Under the pieces are notes generated by a model. That model worked only from the letters and a program-made list of their open reading frames with translations, was not told where the DNA came from and made no database searches. A program made the position numbers and the translations under genes. Source: Coffea arabica (lineage: Eukaryota > Streptophyta > Magnoliopsida > Gentianales > Rubiaceae). From it: a DNA stretch of 64,000 nucleotides. How positions within the stretch are numbered: position 1 is the stretch's first letter; every line of letters begins with the position of its first letter. Of this stretch, positions 20,469-54,640 are shown piece after piece. The stretch is from the NCBI RefSeq assembly GCF_036785885.1, contig NC_092314.1, positions 15,893,638-15,957,637 on the forward strand. The letters run 5' to 3'.

Positions 20469-20501
20469 CTTGGCAATATAATTTCTACCGATGTTCAATT
20501 T

Positions 20502-21070
20502 TACGGCATGATCGGGTATTATCCTACTGATCGATGTTATGGCAAGATCGAATTTTATCCCACTGACCAATTTGATGGCATGATCGGGCATTATCCCACT
20601 GACCAATTTGACGGTAGGATCAAGTATTATCCTACTGACCGATGGTATAGCAGGATCAGATATTATCCCACTGATCAATTTGATGGCAGGATTGGGTATT
20701 ATCCCACTGACCGATGGTATGGCAGGATTAGATTTTATTTCACTGACTAATTTGATAGCAGGCTTGGGTATTATCCCACTAACCAATTTGACGGCAGGAT
20801 TGGGTATTATCCCACTGACCGATGGTATGGCAAGATCGGATTTTATTCCACTGATTAATTTGACGGCAGGCTCGGGTATTATTCCACTGATCGATATTAT
20901 GGCAGGATTGGATATTATCTCACTGATCAATTTTGCGGCAGGTTTGGGTTTATCCCACTAATCACTTTTATCTTGTTAGGTTTGAATTTTATTCCACCAA
21001 CCTCGGCAGGCTCGAGTTTTTATCCCACTGACCGAGGTTATGGCAGGTTAGGATTTTTATCCCACTGACT
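20502..21070 (+). repeat. 36-bp minisatellite, about 15 units
   Basis: The unit is approximately GGCAGGATTGGGTATTATCC followed by CACTGACCAATTTGAC, with GACCGATGGTAT alternating in some units. Because 36 is a multiple of three, frames stay open across units on both strands (12-residue periodicity such as YYPTDQFDGRIG forward). I regard these frames as by-products. Array position just upstream of the 3' LTR is typical for Tat/Ogre elements. Confidence 0.9.
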
Positions 21071-36760: not shown

Positions 36761-37144
36761 TTAATTCCCGAAAAGGTTTGGGTACTTTTTCTGCATTTCT
36801 TCTTCCATTTCCCAAGTAGCTTCCTCTACTCCGTGGTTTCTCCATAGCACTTTCACTAGCGGAATCCGCTTGTTTCTGAGCTCTTTGACTTTTCGATCGA
36901 GCACTTGGACCGGTTTCTCTTCATAGGCAAGCGATTCGTCTACTTCGATATCTTCCGGTTGTAATACATGGGATGGGTCGGGATGATACTTCTTTAGCAT
37001 CGAGACATGAAACACATCGTGGATTCGAGAGAGACTGGACGGCAGTTCTAATCGATAGGCGACCGCTCCTACCCTCTGCAGGATCTTGTAGGGTCCGACG
37101 TACCGCGGTTGAAGTTTCTTCCCTTTTCCACTTTCTCTCTCCAC
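36761..37144 (-). CDS. Pol tail: GPY-like motif and Tekay chromodomain-like end (Tekay-like element)
   Basis: Starts within [19 protein letters not shown] (GPY/F motif of the integrase C-terminus), then [20 protein letters not shown] and, at the end, [20 protein letters not shown] with [12 protein letters not shown] and YPNLF, the chromodomain-like C-terminus of Tekay/Del integrases that guides insertion. It is cut off from its own catalytic core: the preceding bases belong to the RNase H side after a deletion, and it lies in a different frame from the RT-RNase H ORF it overlaps (37069-37144). The first Met is therefore only the first one available. Confidence 0.85.
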
Positions 37145-38451
37145 TTCCGTACCATCAAATCTTCGCCTTGCGCCCCTTTTATGCGTTCCAGTAGAGTGGA
37201 GGTCACCCTAACATTGCCAAATATCACCTTATGGCTCCCAAGACAGGGTCTCCACTCGCACACGGATTCTAATAAATCCCACTCCTTCATCATCAACCCG
37301 GCTACTTGTACCTTACGACTCAAGGCATCCGCTACCACATTTGCCTTTCCCGGATGGTAGTTGATTGTGCAGTCGTAATCTTCCAGAAATTCCATCCATC
37401 GCCGTTGTCTCATGTTCAATTCCTTCTGAGAGAAAAGGTACCAAAGGCTTTTGTGATCCGAATACACTTCGAAGGTCACCCCATATAGGTAATGCCTCCA
37501 CTTTTTCAGTGCAAAGACAACTGCGGCTAGTTCCAGATCGTGAGTCGGGTAGTTCTGCTCGTGAAGCTTCAATTTCCTAGAGGCGAAAGAAATCACATTC
37601 CGGTTCTGCATCAATACGCACCCCAGGCCTTCTCGCGACGCGTCTGCATACACCGCAAACCCGTCCACTCCATTTGGCAAGACTAGTACTGGAGCCATGG
37701 TTAATCTTTTCTTTAGTTCCTGGAAACTTGTCTCGCAACGGGCGTCCCAGACAAACCGACCATGCTTTTTCGTCAGGTCAGTTAAAGGTCCTGCTAGTTT
37801 AGAGAAATTTTTAATGAAACGTCGGTAGTACCCAGCTAGCCCTAGAAAGCTGCGAATTTCTGTGAGATTTTCTGGCCTCTTCCAATTTGTCACGGCCTCA
37901 ATCTTCGCCGGGTCCACCGAAATGCCGTCGTGGGAGATTACGTGCCCTAGGAATGCCACTTTCTCCAACCAGAACTCGCACTTACTAAATTTGGCGTACA
38001 ATTGATGCTCCCTTAAGGTCTGCAACACCACCCTCAAATGCTCCTCATGTTCCTCGCGTGTCTTAGAGTAGACCAAAATGTCATCAATGAACACAACGAC
38101 AAATCGGTCTAGATAGGGTTTAAAAACCCTATGCATTAGGTCCATAAATGCGGCGGGAGCATTGGTCAGTCCAAAGGGCATGACGGCGAACTCGTAATGC
38201 CCGTATCTTGAGTTGAAAGCAGTTTTCGGAATATCCTCCTTCCTAATTAACAACTGATAATATCCCTGTCGGAGGTCCAACTTGGAGAAGACCACTGCTC
38301 CTTGCAGCTGGTCAAACAACTCGTCAATGTGGGGCAGTGGACATTTATTCTTGATTGTAACATTGTTCAGACCCCGGTAGTCAATGCACATCCTCAAGGT
38401 TCCGTCCTTTTTCTTCACAAATAGGACAGGAGCCCCCCCAAGGAGACCCAC
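37069..38451 (-). CDS. Reverse transcriptase and RNase H (Tekay-like element)
   Basis: 460 residues. RT domain: [20 protein letters not shown] near the start, [11 protein letters not shown], the catalytic FIDDILVYS box (both Asp kept), [11 protein letters not shown], and the connection [11 protein letters not shown]. RNase [15 protein letters not shown] (first catalytic Asp), [17 protein letters not shown] (Glu), [11 protein letters not shown] (Asp) and [10 protein letters not shown]. These copy the element RNA into DNA in virus-like particles. The frame is open throughout, but it is out of phase with the upstream gag-protease ORF because of a seven-C run at 38433-38439, and it ends after only ~60 residues beyond RNase H, where integrase should start. 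About 20 out-of-frame residues finish the ORF. Confidence 0.93.
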
Positions 38452-39793
38452 TCTCGTGAATGAATCCCCGCTCCAAAAGATCTTGTAATTGCAATTTAAG
38501 CTCCTTAAGTTCTGCAGGCGCCATTCGATAAGGGGTTTTTGAGATAAGTGAGATTCCAGGTAACAAGTCGATTTGAAATTCTATCTCCCGTTCCGGCGGT
38601 AAAGCTACTAACTCATCAGGGAATACATCCGGAAATTCCCTCACTATGGCCACGTCTTCCACTTTTAATTTATCCGTAAGGGTGTTAATCAAAAAGACCA
38701 AAAATCCTTGCGCCCCTCTACTTATCAGTTTCCTAGCTCGAATGCCTGAAAGCAAAGCAGATGAGGCTAACCTACCCCTTATATCCAACCTTAAGGTTGC
38801 CTCGCCAGGAATGCGAAATTCTACTACTTTTGTTTTACAATCCAGTTGGGCGTTATATTTGGCTAGCCAGTCCATACCCAGAATCACATCATACCCCTTA
38901 ATGGATAAGCTAATCAGGTCTCCTAAAAAACTCCTTTCACCTACCCATACATCACAATCCCTATAAACCATACTAGTCACCAAACGTTGATTTCCCGTAG
39001 GTGTACTAACTTCTAGGTCATATGGTAAACTAGCAGGTTTTATATCGATGCCACACATGAAATCAGGGTTAACAAACGAATGAGTGGCACCAGCATCAAT
39101 TAAAACTTTGGCAAAACGGTGGAAAATAGGGATCGTACCTTCTACGACCTCCGAAGACTCCGGGACCTGATGGGGCTCTAAAGAATACACCCTAGCCGGC
39201 ACTTTAGGTTTAGACCCATCTCCCTTAGCTGGTCCAGTATTGGTCCTCGGCGGTGGTTGGCTACCCTTTCCATCCTGTTTCAGAACCGGGCAAGTAGCCA
39301 ATTGGTGGTCTGCGCTTCCACATCGCAGACATTTGTCCTGTTTCCTCCAGCAGTTATCTTCGTTGTGGTTTGACTTTCCGCAATGCCCGCAGGAACCGCG
39401 AAATGCTGAAGCCGAACCACTCTGAGCATTTCCTCTTTGTCCTCGCCCAGTTTGGCCACCCCTGAATGGAGTCCCTCTACCAGTTCTAGATTGTCGACCA
39501 CCACCCGTTCCTCGTCCAAATTTAGAGGGGCTACTCTTCTCGCCCTGTCCAGAGCTACTCCCAGGAAAGCCACGCTTCTTCGCCTGGAAGTTCCGGACTT
39601 GCAACCATGCACTCTCAACTCGCTGGGCCTTTTCCACAACCTCGCTAAACGCATTGATTTGAGCCACTGCGAGGTCTTTCTGAATCTCAACATTCAGACC
39701 CTGAATAAAGCGCCTAATCCGTCTTTGCTCAGTCATGATTAACTCAGGTGCAAACTTGGACAGGCGGGTGAACTGACTCTCATATTCCGCCAC
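38381..39793 (-). CDS. Gag C-terminus, CCHC zinc knuckles and aspartic protease (Tekay-like element)
   Basis: 470 residues. The gag end, [18 protein letters not shown] and [10 protein letters not shown], is followed by a basic Gly/Arg-rich linker, a [14 protein letters not shown] knuckle and a second [14 protein letters not shown] knuckle (both CX2CX4HX4C, RNA binding). The protease active-site loop is [11 protein letters not shown] with the flap-like region to [11 protein letters not shown]. The usual D-T/S-G triplet reads D-A-G here, a possible loss of the hydroxyl that stabilises the active site. The end, [20 protein letters not shown], is the start of the RT domain. A one-base expansion of a G run then shifts out of the RT frame. 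No in-frame link to the gag N-terminal ORF exists (stops at about 39800-39860). Confidence 0.9.
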
Positions 39794-39924
39794 AGTGGAC
39801 TGTGCCTCTTCTATTACATTAGATTACGGAGAAGTCCATTCTCGTCATGATCGATCAAACTCGTCCTCCTTCCTCTCCTGGACTAGAGGAGGGAAAAACT
39901 TTGCATTAAACTCTCGGATGAAGT

Positions 39925-40392
39925 TTATCCAAGTCCTCGGTGTCTGCTCTCGTTCCCATTCAGCCTAATTACGTTCCACCAGGAACGGGCCGCTCCCTCA
40001 AGCTGGAACACGGCAAAAGTGACCTGCCGTTCGTCAGGGTAGTGGAGAGCTGCGAATATGTCAACCATCTTTTCAAGCCATTTTTCGGCAACGTCCGGGT
40101 CAGGTCCCCCAACAAACTTTGGCGGAGCGAACTTTTGAAAACGTTCGAGAGCTCTATCTTCACTCTCGATGTGGTTACCAGGGTTTCCGGGGTTAGGGTT
40201 TGGGTTATGACCCTGTTGTTGCACTACTTGTGCTAGTAGGTTTGTCATTTGCTGCATAGCAGCAGCTATTTGCACATTTGGGCCTATTTGTTGTTCAAGA
40301 TTGGGTCCAATAGAGGTTTCCCCCGTACCCCTAACCGGTGTGGGTTGTCTAGTTCCGCGCCCACGTCCCCGACCACTTCGTGTACCTTCCAT
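39925..40392 (-). CDS. Gag N-terminal ORF (Tekay-like element), truncated by frameshift
   Basis: 155 residues: a basic start RSGRGRGRGTRQ, a glutamine-rich segment (AAAMQQMTNLLAQVVQQQ), then the retrotransposon gag fold PPKFVGGPDPDVAEKWLEKM and QLEGAARSWWNVIR. After WNVIR one base appears to be missing (near 39966), so the normal continuation (TPRTWINFIREFNAKFFPP region) is in another frame, and two stops lie between it and the next ORF. Gag would build the virus-like particle. This copy cannot make a full one. Confidence 0.85.
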   Translation of the reverse strand: MEGTRSGRGRGRGTRQPTPVRGTGETSIGPNLEQQIGPNVQIAAAMQQMTNLLAQVVQQQGHNPNPNPGNPGNHIESEDRALERFQKFAPPKFVGGPDPDVAEKWLEKMVDIFAALHYPDERQVTFAVFQLEGAARSWWNVIRLNGNESRHRGLG

Positions 40393-40734
40393 GAGTTTTA
40401 CTCGGTTTAGGTAAAAGTACTAAACCAAAGTAATAACAAAGCATGTAAGTAGCACTCAAACATCTCACAATAACACATATTTATACATTCCAAACATGAT
40501 CACAAACACATATATACATGCCAAACAAGTTCAAGCTACACACATATATACAATCAGTTAAGTCAAGTACGGCCAAGGCACGTACTAACATAGACGATCC
40601 CCCAAGGAAAGGCCTTCTCAAAAGACATTTACACGTAGCTAATCCACATCCAAAACGATTAGCTAAGGCTCTATCCCTATCCTTATATACATACAAAACC
40701 ACCAACTATCCAAAAGAAGCCTAGAAGTCAAGGC

Positions 40735-41256
40735 CTAGTCGGTTGCCGGGCTCTGGGACCCAGGCGACGGGGTAGACTCCTCCCCGGCCTCGGCCCCCGC
40801 ACAAGAGGCCTCATCGCTATCCTCCTCGAGCCCGTCATCACACAGATTAAGGATCGTCTCAGTGCGACCCCTGACTTTGCGAGCTCGCTTGAGCTCGCGC
40901 TCTCGTGCCTCCCTCAGTTGGTTGCATAGGTCATCAACTCTGTCCTCGACCTCGGGCACGTCATATTCTAGTTCCTTGATACGTGCAACCTGCTTCTCGT
41001 TGGCTGCCCTAACCTGAGTCATCTCAGCCTCCAACTTAGCATTATCCTCAGTAAGCTCCTCACGCTCCTTCGCCACAGCCAATACTAAAGCGTTCGAATA
41101 GTAGTAGGTGTTACGGCACTCACACTGTCGGAGGTGATTGGCCGGGCTCCAACGAACTACAGCCCCCTTTTGCCGGATCTGATACTTAATCGGTGGTAGC
41201 CCGCCACGAGAAAGCTCTCCAGCCGGACGATCACTTGGGTCACCACTTCCGTCCAT
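40735..41256 (-). CDS. Extra ORF ahead of gag, coiled-coil protein of unknown function
   Basis: 173 residues, intact. It begins about 100 bases after the primer-binding site and ends about 340 bases before the gag ATG, so it would be the first ORF on the genomic RNA. The N-terminal part has GGLPPIKYQIRQKG and RWSPANHLRQCECRNTYYYS. Residues about 60-130 are heptad-rich and highly charged (KEREELTEDNAKLEAEM, RVDDLCNQLREARERELKRA), which predicts a coiled coil. The tail is acidic and Ser/Pro-rich. I recognise no gag, pol or envelope motif, signal peptide or membrane segment. A role in particle assembly, RNA packaging or regulation is a guess. Confidence 0.7.
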   Translation of the reverse strand: MDGSGDPSDRPAGELSRGGLPPIKYQIRQKGAVVRWSPANHLRQCECRNTYYYSNALVLAVAKEREELTEDNAKLEAEMTQVRAANEKQVARIKELEYDVPEVEDRVDDLCNQLREARERELKRARKVRGRTETILNLCDDGLEEDSDEASCAGAEAGEESTPSPGSQSPATD

Positions 41257-41357
41257 CCTATATCAAAGGAAGAAATATCGTGAATACACTTAAAAGGCAT
41301 AAGCAAAGAAACCCTCAAGTCTAGCACTTCTATTACACCCAGACTAATTCAAAACTA

Positions 41358-52160: not shown

Positions 52161-52180
52161 ACGCCCTTATTTATTTAGCA

Positions 52181-53295
52181 TTAATTTTTGACCTCATCTC
52201 CGGATGTAGCTTCAGTAGGTTGACAGCATCTTTGGCAATGTCCATGGTACCAGTGGCAGCAACCATGTCTGCAAGTCTCCTCAGCAGGTGGACAGCATCT
52301 TTGGCAATGTCCATGGTACCAGTGGCAGCAACCATGTCTGCACCGATGTTCAGGGGTCTCCTCAGCAGGTGGACAGCATCTTTGGCAATGTCCATGGTAC
52401 CAGCGGCAGCAACCATGTCTGCAACGATGTTCAGGGGTCTCCTCAGCAGGTGGACAGCATCTTTGGCAATGTCCATGGTACCAGCGGCAGCAACCATGTC
52501 TGCAACGATCTGCGGTTACGGTATCCTCATCTCCAGATGTGGCTTCAGGGGTCTCCTCGGCAGTTTGACAGCATCTTTGGCAGCGTCCATGGTACCAGTG
52601 GCAGCAACCATGTCTGCAACGATCTTCGCTTATGCTATCCTGATGAACCTCGCCTGAACTGGCATCGTGGACACCAGTGGTATTCACGCTCTTCTGATCT
52701 GTTTCAAGACACAAGGAGACATAAATATTTGGAGCTTTATCTTAAGCTGCGAACGTTAGGTGACTGGCTAGGCTGAAAATTTGCAAGATATATGCAAAGA
52801 AAAGAATACTATGGATTAAACAAAACAGTCTAGGCATATAAGATGGTGCGACTTGGATATGAATTATTTTGCTTTAAATTATAATTAGAAGCATTTAGTT
52901 TGGTTTTCGACGTTAGTTTAACCTTTGGTGCGACACTATGGAACGTGTATCCTTACAGCAATACTATAAGGATGCATGAAAAATTAGATGTGCCACTAAC
53001 CATTGATAGAAGCAACCCAATTTACTTTTGCTAAACACTGAAAAAGATATTAGCACATTAATATGACTTGCTTGATAATATACAAATAGCCTTCCATAAA
53101 AATTCACATCCCAATAATGAGTCTCCAAATCTCCATTCATTTAAGTATTTAGGTGCAGCCAAAAAAAAAAAGGAAGAAAGGAAAAAAAAAAAAAAAAAAG
53201 GACTAGGCACCTGCAGCTGTTGCATCAGAGGAAATATGGAGCACAAGTGCAAAGAGAACACCAATAAGAAAGAGCAAATTTTTTGAAGATGCCAT
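52181..53295 (-). CDS. Secreted Cys/His-rich repeat protein (GRP/nodulin-like signal peptide), 200 aa
   Basis: Exon 1 is 53295-53211 and exon 2 is 52698-52181. The 512-bp intron has GT (53210-53209) and AG (52700-52699), and the phase fits (85 + 518 nt = 200 codons plus TAA). Residues 1-28 (MASSKNLLFL...) are a signal peptide like those of plant GRP/nodulin proteins. An acidic stretch (29-54) follows, then five modules of the type CRHGCCHWYHGHCQRCC at residues 56-72, 94-110, 121-137, 148-164 and 171-187: C-x3-CC-x6-C-x2-CC, six Cys each, thirty in total, basic and His-rich. Linkers such as PPAEETPEH are acidic. The module resembles the single C-terminal Cys motif of some GRP-family proteins. 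Five in tandem suggests a precursor cut into small disulfide-bonded peptides, or a multi-site metal binder. Both are inferences. It is likely apoplastic. TATA box and poly(A)-like signal are in place, and no lesion is seen. Confidence 0.8.
52195..52620 (-). repeat. 81-bp tandem coding repeat of the Cys-rich gene
   Basis: TGGACAGCATCTTTGGCAAT followed by GTCCATGGTACCAG(T/C)GGCAGC recurs five times. Three units are 81 bp and nearly identical, and the outer units differ more. This fits recent expansion by unequal exchange. Confidence 0.9.
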
Positions 53296-53373: not shown

Positions 53374-53383
53374 CTATTTATAG
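53374..53383 (-). promoter_or_regulatory. TATA box of the Cys-rich gene
   Basis: Minus strand CTATAAATAG, about 80 bases upstream of the ATG at 53295. Confidence 0.7.
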
Positions 53384-53399: not shown

Positions 53400-54640
53400 A
53401 CCATGCCTTGCGTGGAATGAATATTTTAGGGTTAATTTCAAAAACCTCCCTTGAGGGTTTTCATAATTTCACTAGCACCCTTGTTATATCCAATAATACA
53501 TTGAGCTCCCTTCTGATGTTGATCGGACCTAATGTTAATCTCATCAGGGGCAAATTGACCATAATGCCCTCACTAAAATAGCTTTTTTCAAGATTTTTAG
53601 AAGCACAATATAATCTTCCAATCTTACCAAGATACCATCAAAACCTGGTGCCAAAATTTAACAACTTTACTAAAAGTAATTTCTCTGTTGGTTGGTAAGC
53701 CTTGGAGACGAGCTTTCGGAGCTGAACTTTAAGCTCCGAAAATCTTTAATTGGGTGAAGGAAGATTGCTGCCAAAAGTGCGTTATCAGCTATATTCCTTG
53801 ACATCTATAAAAGGTAAAAGGTGGAAACTTTTTTAATTGAATGGTATGGTACCATGAATAAACTCGTTAAGTTGATAAGATGAACATTCTGGCCATAAGA
53901 AATGTTTAAAATGTAGCCAGTGGACATGACGAGTCATTTGAGGTCCACACCATGATATCTTGATGTTATATGAGCAATTTATGATGGATAATGCCATGCA
54001 TTATTGTTCTTTCTATTATGTGAAAATGGATGAAATATACATAGCTGGTGAATTAAGTAGACTGTATCGATTTTGATATGTAAGTACGACTCTCTGATTG
54101 GTTGCTCATTTTTTGTCTTCTAGGACAAATCTCCCAAAATAAGTTTATATGGTGTTTCATTGCTGAATCACGAACATTCCTATAGTAAAAATTTTAGTCT
54201 TAAATCAGGTTGAACTAATTATATGGAGGGAAAATTTTAGATGCTAAGTGACTGATTCACTCCTCATTTTGTCATGTACTATCCCAAAAAAAAAAGGCTG
54301 GCTAATTAGTTTGTTAATAAGGACCTTATAAGATCACCTCCAAAAGTAAGTTGTTGTATTATCTCTTTGTCGAGTTTTTATCATGAACATTTTTTAGGGA
54401 AATTAATCTTCAATTAGCTTGGACTACATTGTCTTAAATTAGTTAAGTTTTTGCAGTAGAAAATAGAAATATGCTGTAGTACAAATTCAATTATCTAGTA
54501 ATTAGATTACTATTTTCGATGCCTTTATCTGTTTACCACTAATTGAAATCCACCGTGAATGTTGAACAACTAAGATGGGAACTGTGCTCATGACATTATT
54601 GTGCGTTAATTTTTTTTTAGTTGCTATGTGGTCGATGAAT
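53400..54640. other. No recognised gene; upstream flank of the Cys-rich gene
   Basis: Starts with a MITE-like phrase GGGTTAATTTCAAAAACCTC at 53430, for which I find no inverted partner. The rest is AT-rich. Confidence 0.4.

Follow-up and report, generated by a model that had tools for sequence, protein, structure and literature searches.

The window analysed here, a stretch of 64,000 nucleotides of Coffea arabica (C5:15893638-15957637 of the 1.198-Gb assembly), carries on its minus strand a two-exon gene encoding a protein of 200 residues, whose 30 cysteines all fall inside five modules of 17 residues with the spacing C-x3-CC-x6-C-x2-CC (Table 1). Reading of the sequence confirms the gene proposed by the initial annotation as intact, including its splice phase, the TATA box, the five modules and the 30 Cys in 200 residues. 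The six-cysteine repeats stand, as had also been proposed, behind a secretory-type N-terminus: judging from its hydrophobicity and its likeness to the N-terminus of glycine-rich proteins (GRPs, see below), this segment is probably a secretory signal peptide. The modules are basic, with a net charge of +2 or +3 without histidines and of +6 with every His charged, and their 85 residues comprise 17 His and 30 Cys. They are separated by four linkers of 21, 10, 10 and 6 residues, two of the four being PPAEETPEHR, with net charges from -2 to -6 when His is taken as uncharged.

Table 1. Features of the gene in the window (all on the minus strand).
Feature	Position	Strand	Remark
TATAAATA box	53375..53382	-	starts at 53382, 87 nt 5' of the ATG
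Exon 1, 85 nt, with ATG at 53295 and signal-peptide-like hydrophobic N-terminus	53211..53295	-	similar exon in intact paralogs
Intron, 512 nt, GT-AG, phase 1	52699..53210	-	position common to intact paralogs
Exon 2: pro-spacer, five modules, linkers, tail, TAA stop	52181..52698	-	sequence reading
Module 1, CRHGCCHWYHGRCQRCC	52568..52618	-	sequence reading
Linker 1, 21 aa, acidic	52505..52567	-	in paralogs, DNA resembles tail plus pre-module segment
Module 2, CRHGCCRWYHGHCQRCC	52454..52504	-	sequence reading
Linker 2, PPAEETPEHR	52424..52453	-	sequence reading
Module 3, CRHGCCRWYHGHCQRCC	52373..52423	-	sequence reading
Linker 3, PPAEETPEHR	52343..52372	-	sequence reading
Module 4, CRHGCCHWYHGHCQRCC	52292..52342	-	sequence reading
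Linker 4, PPAEET	52274..52291	-	sequence reading
Module 5, CRHGCCHWYHGHCQRCC	52223..52273	-	sequence reading
Acidic C-terminal tail QPTEATSGDEVKN and stop	52181..52222	-	alignable with class II GRP tails

At the DNA level the central units are nearly identical, as had been claimed: modules 2 and 3 agree at 51/51 bases, as do modules 4 and 5, modules 2 and 4 agree at 50/51, and module 1 matches the other four at 48-49/51. Tandem Repeats Finder accordingly reports an 81-bp unit in 2.9 copies with 98% matches, together with a 114-bp unit in 1.9 copies. A second frame of the array is open as well (52171-52515, minus strand) and reads as a repeated ADMVAATGTMDIAKDAVHLLRRPLNI-like peptide; at locus L017 (C5 10.040 Mb) a frameshift takes the protein into this ADMVAATGTMDIAKDAVHLLRRPLNI-like frame, with no stop through the end of the gene. 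Elsewhere in the window, long open frames on the minus strand (37069-41262) have the look of a Ty3/Gypsy-type retrotransposon, their motifs suggesting a gag with zinc knuckles, a protease, a reverse transcriptase and an RNase H. A 36-bp tandem repeat of 12.9 copies (20496-20959) lies within a 173-residue open frame of SGIIPNPAIKLV-like units.

The same 200-residue protein is encoded, without a single difference, at six loci (C5 15.854 and 15.946 Mb; C6 13.575, 16.636, 16.754 and 16.955 Mb), whose sequence, non-coding parts included, shows 99.8-100% identity in comparisons of 3.8-5 kb across the two contigs. For some copies the resemblance reaches further: at least 12 kb at 99.5-99.98% between the two on C5, and at least 9 kb between the window and the C6 16.955 copy. 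To judge from this extended identity, the six copies are recent segmental duplicates, and their agreement is therefore no sign of selection. At the C6 13.575 copy (L038) the 100% match stops in a recombination-like manner at window position 53724, 429 bp 5' of the ATG. A further copy at C6 16.932 is broken and has 95.7% identity over the gene, adjoining a stretch of 100%; for L041 the comparison with the window drops from 100% to 95.7% between 51861 and 52128, which again resembles recombination. Two residues set the identical copies apart: position 34 is Asn (VNTTG, a possible N-glycosylation site) and is Lys in the other 22 intact genes, and position 20, in the signal region, is His, while the others compared have Leu, Tyr or Gln-shifted residues and not His.

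A protein search of the whole genome gave at least 84 matches to the module, every one on C5 or C6, and we grouped these as 35 loci; a second search added the single-module locus L046, whose product is exactly protein P0010, so that 36 loci were found, 18 per contig, these counts being lower bounds. The start, the splice sites and the frame through the modules are intact at 28 of the 35 first-search loci and at L046, that is at 29/36, and the intact loci have from one to five modules each. The seven broken loci differ in their defects: an in-frame stop at a module Cys (L010), an exon 1 that was not found (L015), six modules with a frameshift after the third (L017), a donor GC for GT, with 41 residues read only (L020 and, likewise, the minus-strand gene of L036), an ATA in place of the start codon in a gene that contains a one-residue linker (L035), and several frameshifts (L041). 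The coffee multi-module proteins annotated as 'CYC02 protein-like' form a family with a two-exon gene, repeated modules and a common N-terminus, and the window gene has all three. That paralogs with clearly diverged introns retain both the gene structure and the Cys frame argues that the repeat gene is more than a product of chance.

Clearly, modules have been gained and lost within this family. Among the 28 intact genes of the first search one module is found in two genes, two in eight, three in four, four in one and five in 13, to a sum of 99 modules (97 of 17 residues and two of 18), and in 7/28 the tail is missing, the stop following directly after the last CC. On a tree of the upstream region, exon 1 and intron of these genes the module number changes at least eight times; on a tree of the same type for 34 of the 35 loci, in which L015 was left out, broken loci were kept and modules were counted in any frame, it changes at least 11 times, both counts being possibly inflated by gene conversion. 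L014 and L032, likely C5/C6 counterparts, have three versus four modules. The suggestion that copy number is in flux is supported, with one to five modules in intact genes and six in one whose frame is broken.

The database lists proteins P0001, P0003 and P0004 as 'isoforms' X2-X4 with differing module number. Exitron or in-register splicing was considered as the source of P0001 and P0003, but no tested GT/GC-AG pair or in-frame deletion yields either of them in 30 gene models from the 35 loci, among which the models of L021 and L024 had a wrong acceptor. Removing 207 bp in register from L037 does give P0004, which suggests an allele or an effect of the assembly. Since no tested pair of splice sites explains them, the three 'isoforms' are perhaps repeat-collapse artefacts or alleles.

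Among the relatives found by sequence, coffee proteins under the names 'uncharacterized' or 'CYC02 protein-like' come first, followed mostly by glycine-rich proteins, and there is a strong case, drawn from sequence, that the module corresponds to the cysteine domain at the C-terminus of class II GRPs. Indeed, the module CRHGCCYKGYRGCSRCC of the GRP P0032 (A. thaliana x A. arenosa) has a spacing identical to that of the coffee module, the N-terminus of the window protein can be aligned with the secretory N-terminus of GRPs, and the tail common in coffee, EETPEATSGDEVKN, finds its counterpart by alignment in GRP tails, for instance EAPDAEFEDDVKN of Catharanthus P0038. These three likenesses bear out the link, already suggested, to the Cys motif that ends GRP/nodulin-type proteins. 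The profile match is weaker: residues 1-44 match the Pfam GRP family at E 0.0055 and 17.8 bits, short of the gathering cut-off of 30 bits. At E<=1, PF07172 matches 12/12 members of our alignment A1, including the window protein and an Ilex GRP, one of the members being a 64-residue model of L024 with a wrong acceptor (the correct L024 product has 89 residues).

The window protein has the six-Cys C-terminal domain of class II GRPs five times over, but no Gly-rich stretch of the GGxxxGG kind was found in its 200 residues. In fact, glycine makes up 4-8% of the nine Coffea proteins found, and 20-32% of 21/25 non-Coffea relatives. We therefore strongly favour reading the window gene as a glycine-less, multi-domain derivative of a class II GRP, in which the Gly-rich region would have been lost and the Cys domain multiplied. 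GRP-like loci lie past the coffee cluster; their search matches are weak (E 0.0024 to 0.095), and they were identified by their reading frames. At C5 10.238 Mb, 74 kb past the cluster, L049 is one apparently intact canonical GRP, with a signal-type exon 1, an intron that, read by eye, apparently follows this signal-peptide exon, and an exon 2 comprising a Gly-rich region and one Cys domain (C-x3-CC-x7-C-x-CC). L048 (C5 10.299 Mb, 136 kb past the cluster) has both GRP parts in one frame, with the first Cys changed to Tyr, and L047 (C6 10.198 Mb, 47 kb past the cluster) looks broken, as its two parts sit in different frames.

A search of the sequences of solved structures gave a single hit, at E 0.55, and for P0009, a single-module relative, the predicted structure reaches a mean pLDDT of 61, too low for a fold comparison, with two short strands in the module. 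Among the papers listed for 'CYC02' none concerns a plant gene so named; in PMC7168108 the term denotes a cyclotide motif. The Juglans regia protein P0030, named 'probable pectin methylesterase CGR2', combines a GRP-type N-terminus with a GRP-like Cys-rich end and is possibly a chimeric model.

Comparison of the linkers with the tail reveals where the acidic segments come from. In five of the six genes compared, linker 1 and the tail have 37-41 of 42 bases in common (L036 41, L026 40), the window gene with its shorter tail reaching 18/42 without gaps, and the last 24 bases of linker 1 agree with the segment before module 1 at 16-19/24 in six genes. At the level of the DNA, these alignments establish the linkers as duplicated copies of the acidic tail of the GRP. 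The unit originally duplicated would have comprised the pre-segment, the module and the tail, in keeping with the 114-bp period, and the shorter linkers would have arisen by later deletions. The acidic tail is already present in GRPs with one Cys domain, from Ilex, Nicotiana, Vitis and Catharanthus, the domain of Catharanthus P0038 missing its first Cys.

The module sequences reveal a distinct pattern of conservation. Every module of the 28 intact genes (99 modules) has exactly six Cys; the search pattern requires the Cys by design, and it is the exact count of six per module that shows that these genes conceal no module lacking just one Cys. Across the 28 distinct DNA sequences of 17-residue modules, all changes in the six Cys codons are silent. 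Gly 11 is invariant, and four further residues are almost so: Trp 8 (27), Tyr 9 (26), Gln 14 (27) and Arg 15 (25). The variable positions 2, 3, 4, 7, 10 and 12 have pN of 0.17-0.42 against an overall pS of 0.12, the silent rate being also high, 0.77, at position 12. Between modules overall, pN/pS is 0.83, and a comparison of 19 genes gives 0.73 in the signal region, 0.65 in the spacer and 0.84 in module 1; introns and exons are about equally diverged, and paralogs whose introns differ by 16-25% from that of the window copy retain the Cys frame. On these figures overall selection is weak and the constraint falls on the Cys frame, with loops that are loose or diversifying.

Several known systems resemble the coffee gene in part. 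Class II GRPs of the AtGRP3 type (PF07172) have the signal-type N-terminus, the six-Cys domain and, in several cases, the acidic tail; the coffee protein differs from them in having no Gly-rich region and in carrying the domain five times, not once. Mondego et al. 2011 (PMC3045888) described class II GRP-like coffee genes that encode a signal peptide and 12 Cys, and these very probably belong to the same family, as our two-module members hold 12 Cys; in the accessible portion of that account, five-module members, the genomic cluster, the origin of the linkers and the turnover of modules do not appear. Seven of the 25 non-Coffea proteins among 34 relatives are multi-module by pattern, with two to four repeats: Cichorium P0013, Cornus P0017 (a further Cornus form is P0035), Oldenlandia P0019, Cinchona P0029, Nicotiana P0024 and Colocasia P0011 and P0012. 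All are Gly-rich except the two from Colocasia, and none has five modules. Among the proteins found in searches whose scoring was confined to the roughly 8,000 candidates with the most words in common, none outside coffee combines five modules with the lack of a Gly-rich stretch. Repetition of the domain has probably arisen more than once across plants, and the five-module coffee gene is preceded by a partial coffee report (PMC3045888) and by domains repeated two to four times in other plants.

Other Cys-rich peptides are more distant. Coffeetides and ginsentides are Cys-rich and the former come from coffee, but they have eight Cys in 37 residues and one mature peptide per precursor, as described in the available part of PMC10538209. 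The Impatiens balsamina Ib-AMP precursor, to which the layout had been likened, also has several basic Cys-rich peptides per transcript; however, each 20-residue peptide has four Cys (CC and CxxxC), against six in the 17-residue coffee module, and in the excerpted text of PMC4695807 the Ib-AMP peptides are without homology to other peptides. The coffee linkers, moreover, are relics of a GRP tail, and there is no support for placing the coffee gene in this precursor type. The likeness is closer to Crip21, the 21-residue Cys domain of the Cuscuta reflexa GRP, as given in the relevant section of PMC7576778: it is a six-Cys domain ending in G-x-C-x-R-CC, equal in number and order of Cys, although its spacing is C-x4-CC-x8-C-x2-CC and its loops are unlike those of coffee.

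We consider it most likely, with a probability of roughly 0.55, that the window protein works whole, as a multivalent binder whose partner is a wall component or a receptor, and is not a precursor cut into peptides. The protein would enter the secretory pathway, the six Cys of each module would probably form three disulfides, and its destination would be the cell wall. There, five domains on short acidic linkers could bind a wall or receptor partner multivalently, raising avidity or clustering it. Such partners are documented for the GRP domain, as far as the consulted portions of the reports go: the Cys domain of AtGRP3 is necessary for binding the WAK1 extracellular domain (PMC4777284, PMC4783359), Crip21 is the ligand of tomato CuRe1, swapping any of four of its Cys cut or abolished activity (PMC7576778), and the dodder GRP is located in the wall (PMC8096328). 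In coffee, the 12-Cys genes mentioned above are differentially expressed in plantlets and in arachidonic acid-treated leaves, according to the same part of PMC3045888.

The protein might instead be structural, cross-linked into the wall through its Cys/Tyr domain and lacking any receptor partner. The near-constant Trp and Tyr at positions 8 and 9 of the distinct modules would suit such a role. The tobacco protein TLRP is reportedly cross-linked into the wall through a domain of this type. We regard this as possible, at odds well below even; as it shares a wall partner with the multivalent binder, the likelihoods we assign to the readings do not sum to one.

The main rival to a multivalent binder is the polyprotein that had originally been proposed, in which apoplastic proteases would cut the linkers and release up to five disulfide peptides of 17-27 residues, as signals or antimicrobials. 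The alternation of basic modules and acidic linkers fits this, and variable loops on a fixed Cys frame recall secreted defence peptides, in which loop residues vary on a constant Cys frame. In addition, Crip21, a GRP domain on its own, shows activity in peptide form, and what was isolated of the dodder GRP, in the section of PMC7576778 available, is a fragment that begins at residue 70, so that cutting is possible in the GRP family. The linkers, however, are relics of a tail that single-domain GRPs already possess, which is the chief evidence against taking them for purpose-made spacers, and they are therefore no argument for a polyprotein. Moreover, the 71 linkers (17 distinct) of the 28 intact genes range from 5 to 21 residues with no universal site and no dibasic pair, and L035, which lacks its ATG, has a linker of one residue. 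The alternating layout stands as described, and the polyprotein drawn from it is weaker than proposed; we hold it to be unlikely.

A secreted protein whose module Cys and His hold a metal such as Cu or Zn, also put forward initially, finds its support in the 17 His and 30 Cys of the module residues. Yet the histidines are not conserved: they occupy positions 3, 7, 10 and 12 in 16, 8, 20 and 14 of the 28 distinct modules, are swapped in paralogs for Tyr, Asn, Arg, Gln and others, and are absent from all three modules of P0006, which weakens the proposal. Cysteines of secreted proteins, furthermore, normally form disulfides, and we judge metal binding improbable. Finally, the near-identity of the six copies down to their non-coding DNA, the 7/36 broken loci and a pN/pS not far under one would suit a non-functional repeat expansion spread by segmental duplication, but with 29/36 loci intact and 0/99 modules having lost a Cys, even in the paralogs with 16-25% intron difference, this is the least credible reading.

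The multivalent binder we prefer allows a more speculative extension, to which we give only slim odds: that in coffee a receptor-read GRP Cys domain has turned into a tunable multivalent or multi-peptide ligand, read by a WAK-type or CuRe1-like immune receptor. Equally tentative is the accompanying view that module number (from one to five or more) and loop residues change fast in such a ligand while the Cys frame stays fixed. If this were true, the proteins would signal damage or self-identity in the plant, with a strength that depends on the number of repeats. More generally, the acidic 'spacers' of this gene show that such segments can arise from a duplicated tail, which calls for caution before every layout of basic modules and acidic linkers is named a polyprotein. 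Both wall sensing, through WAK1, and the recognition of a parasitic plant have been linked to the class II GRP Cys domain, and the coffee genes, which naturally range from one to five intact domains and in some cases differ in number between likely C5/C6 counterparts, allow the effect of valency to be tested directly.
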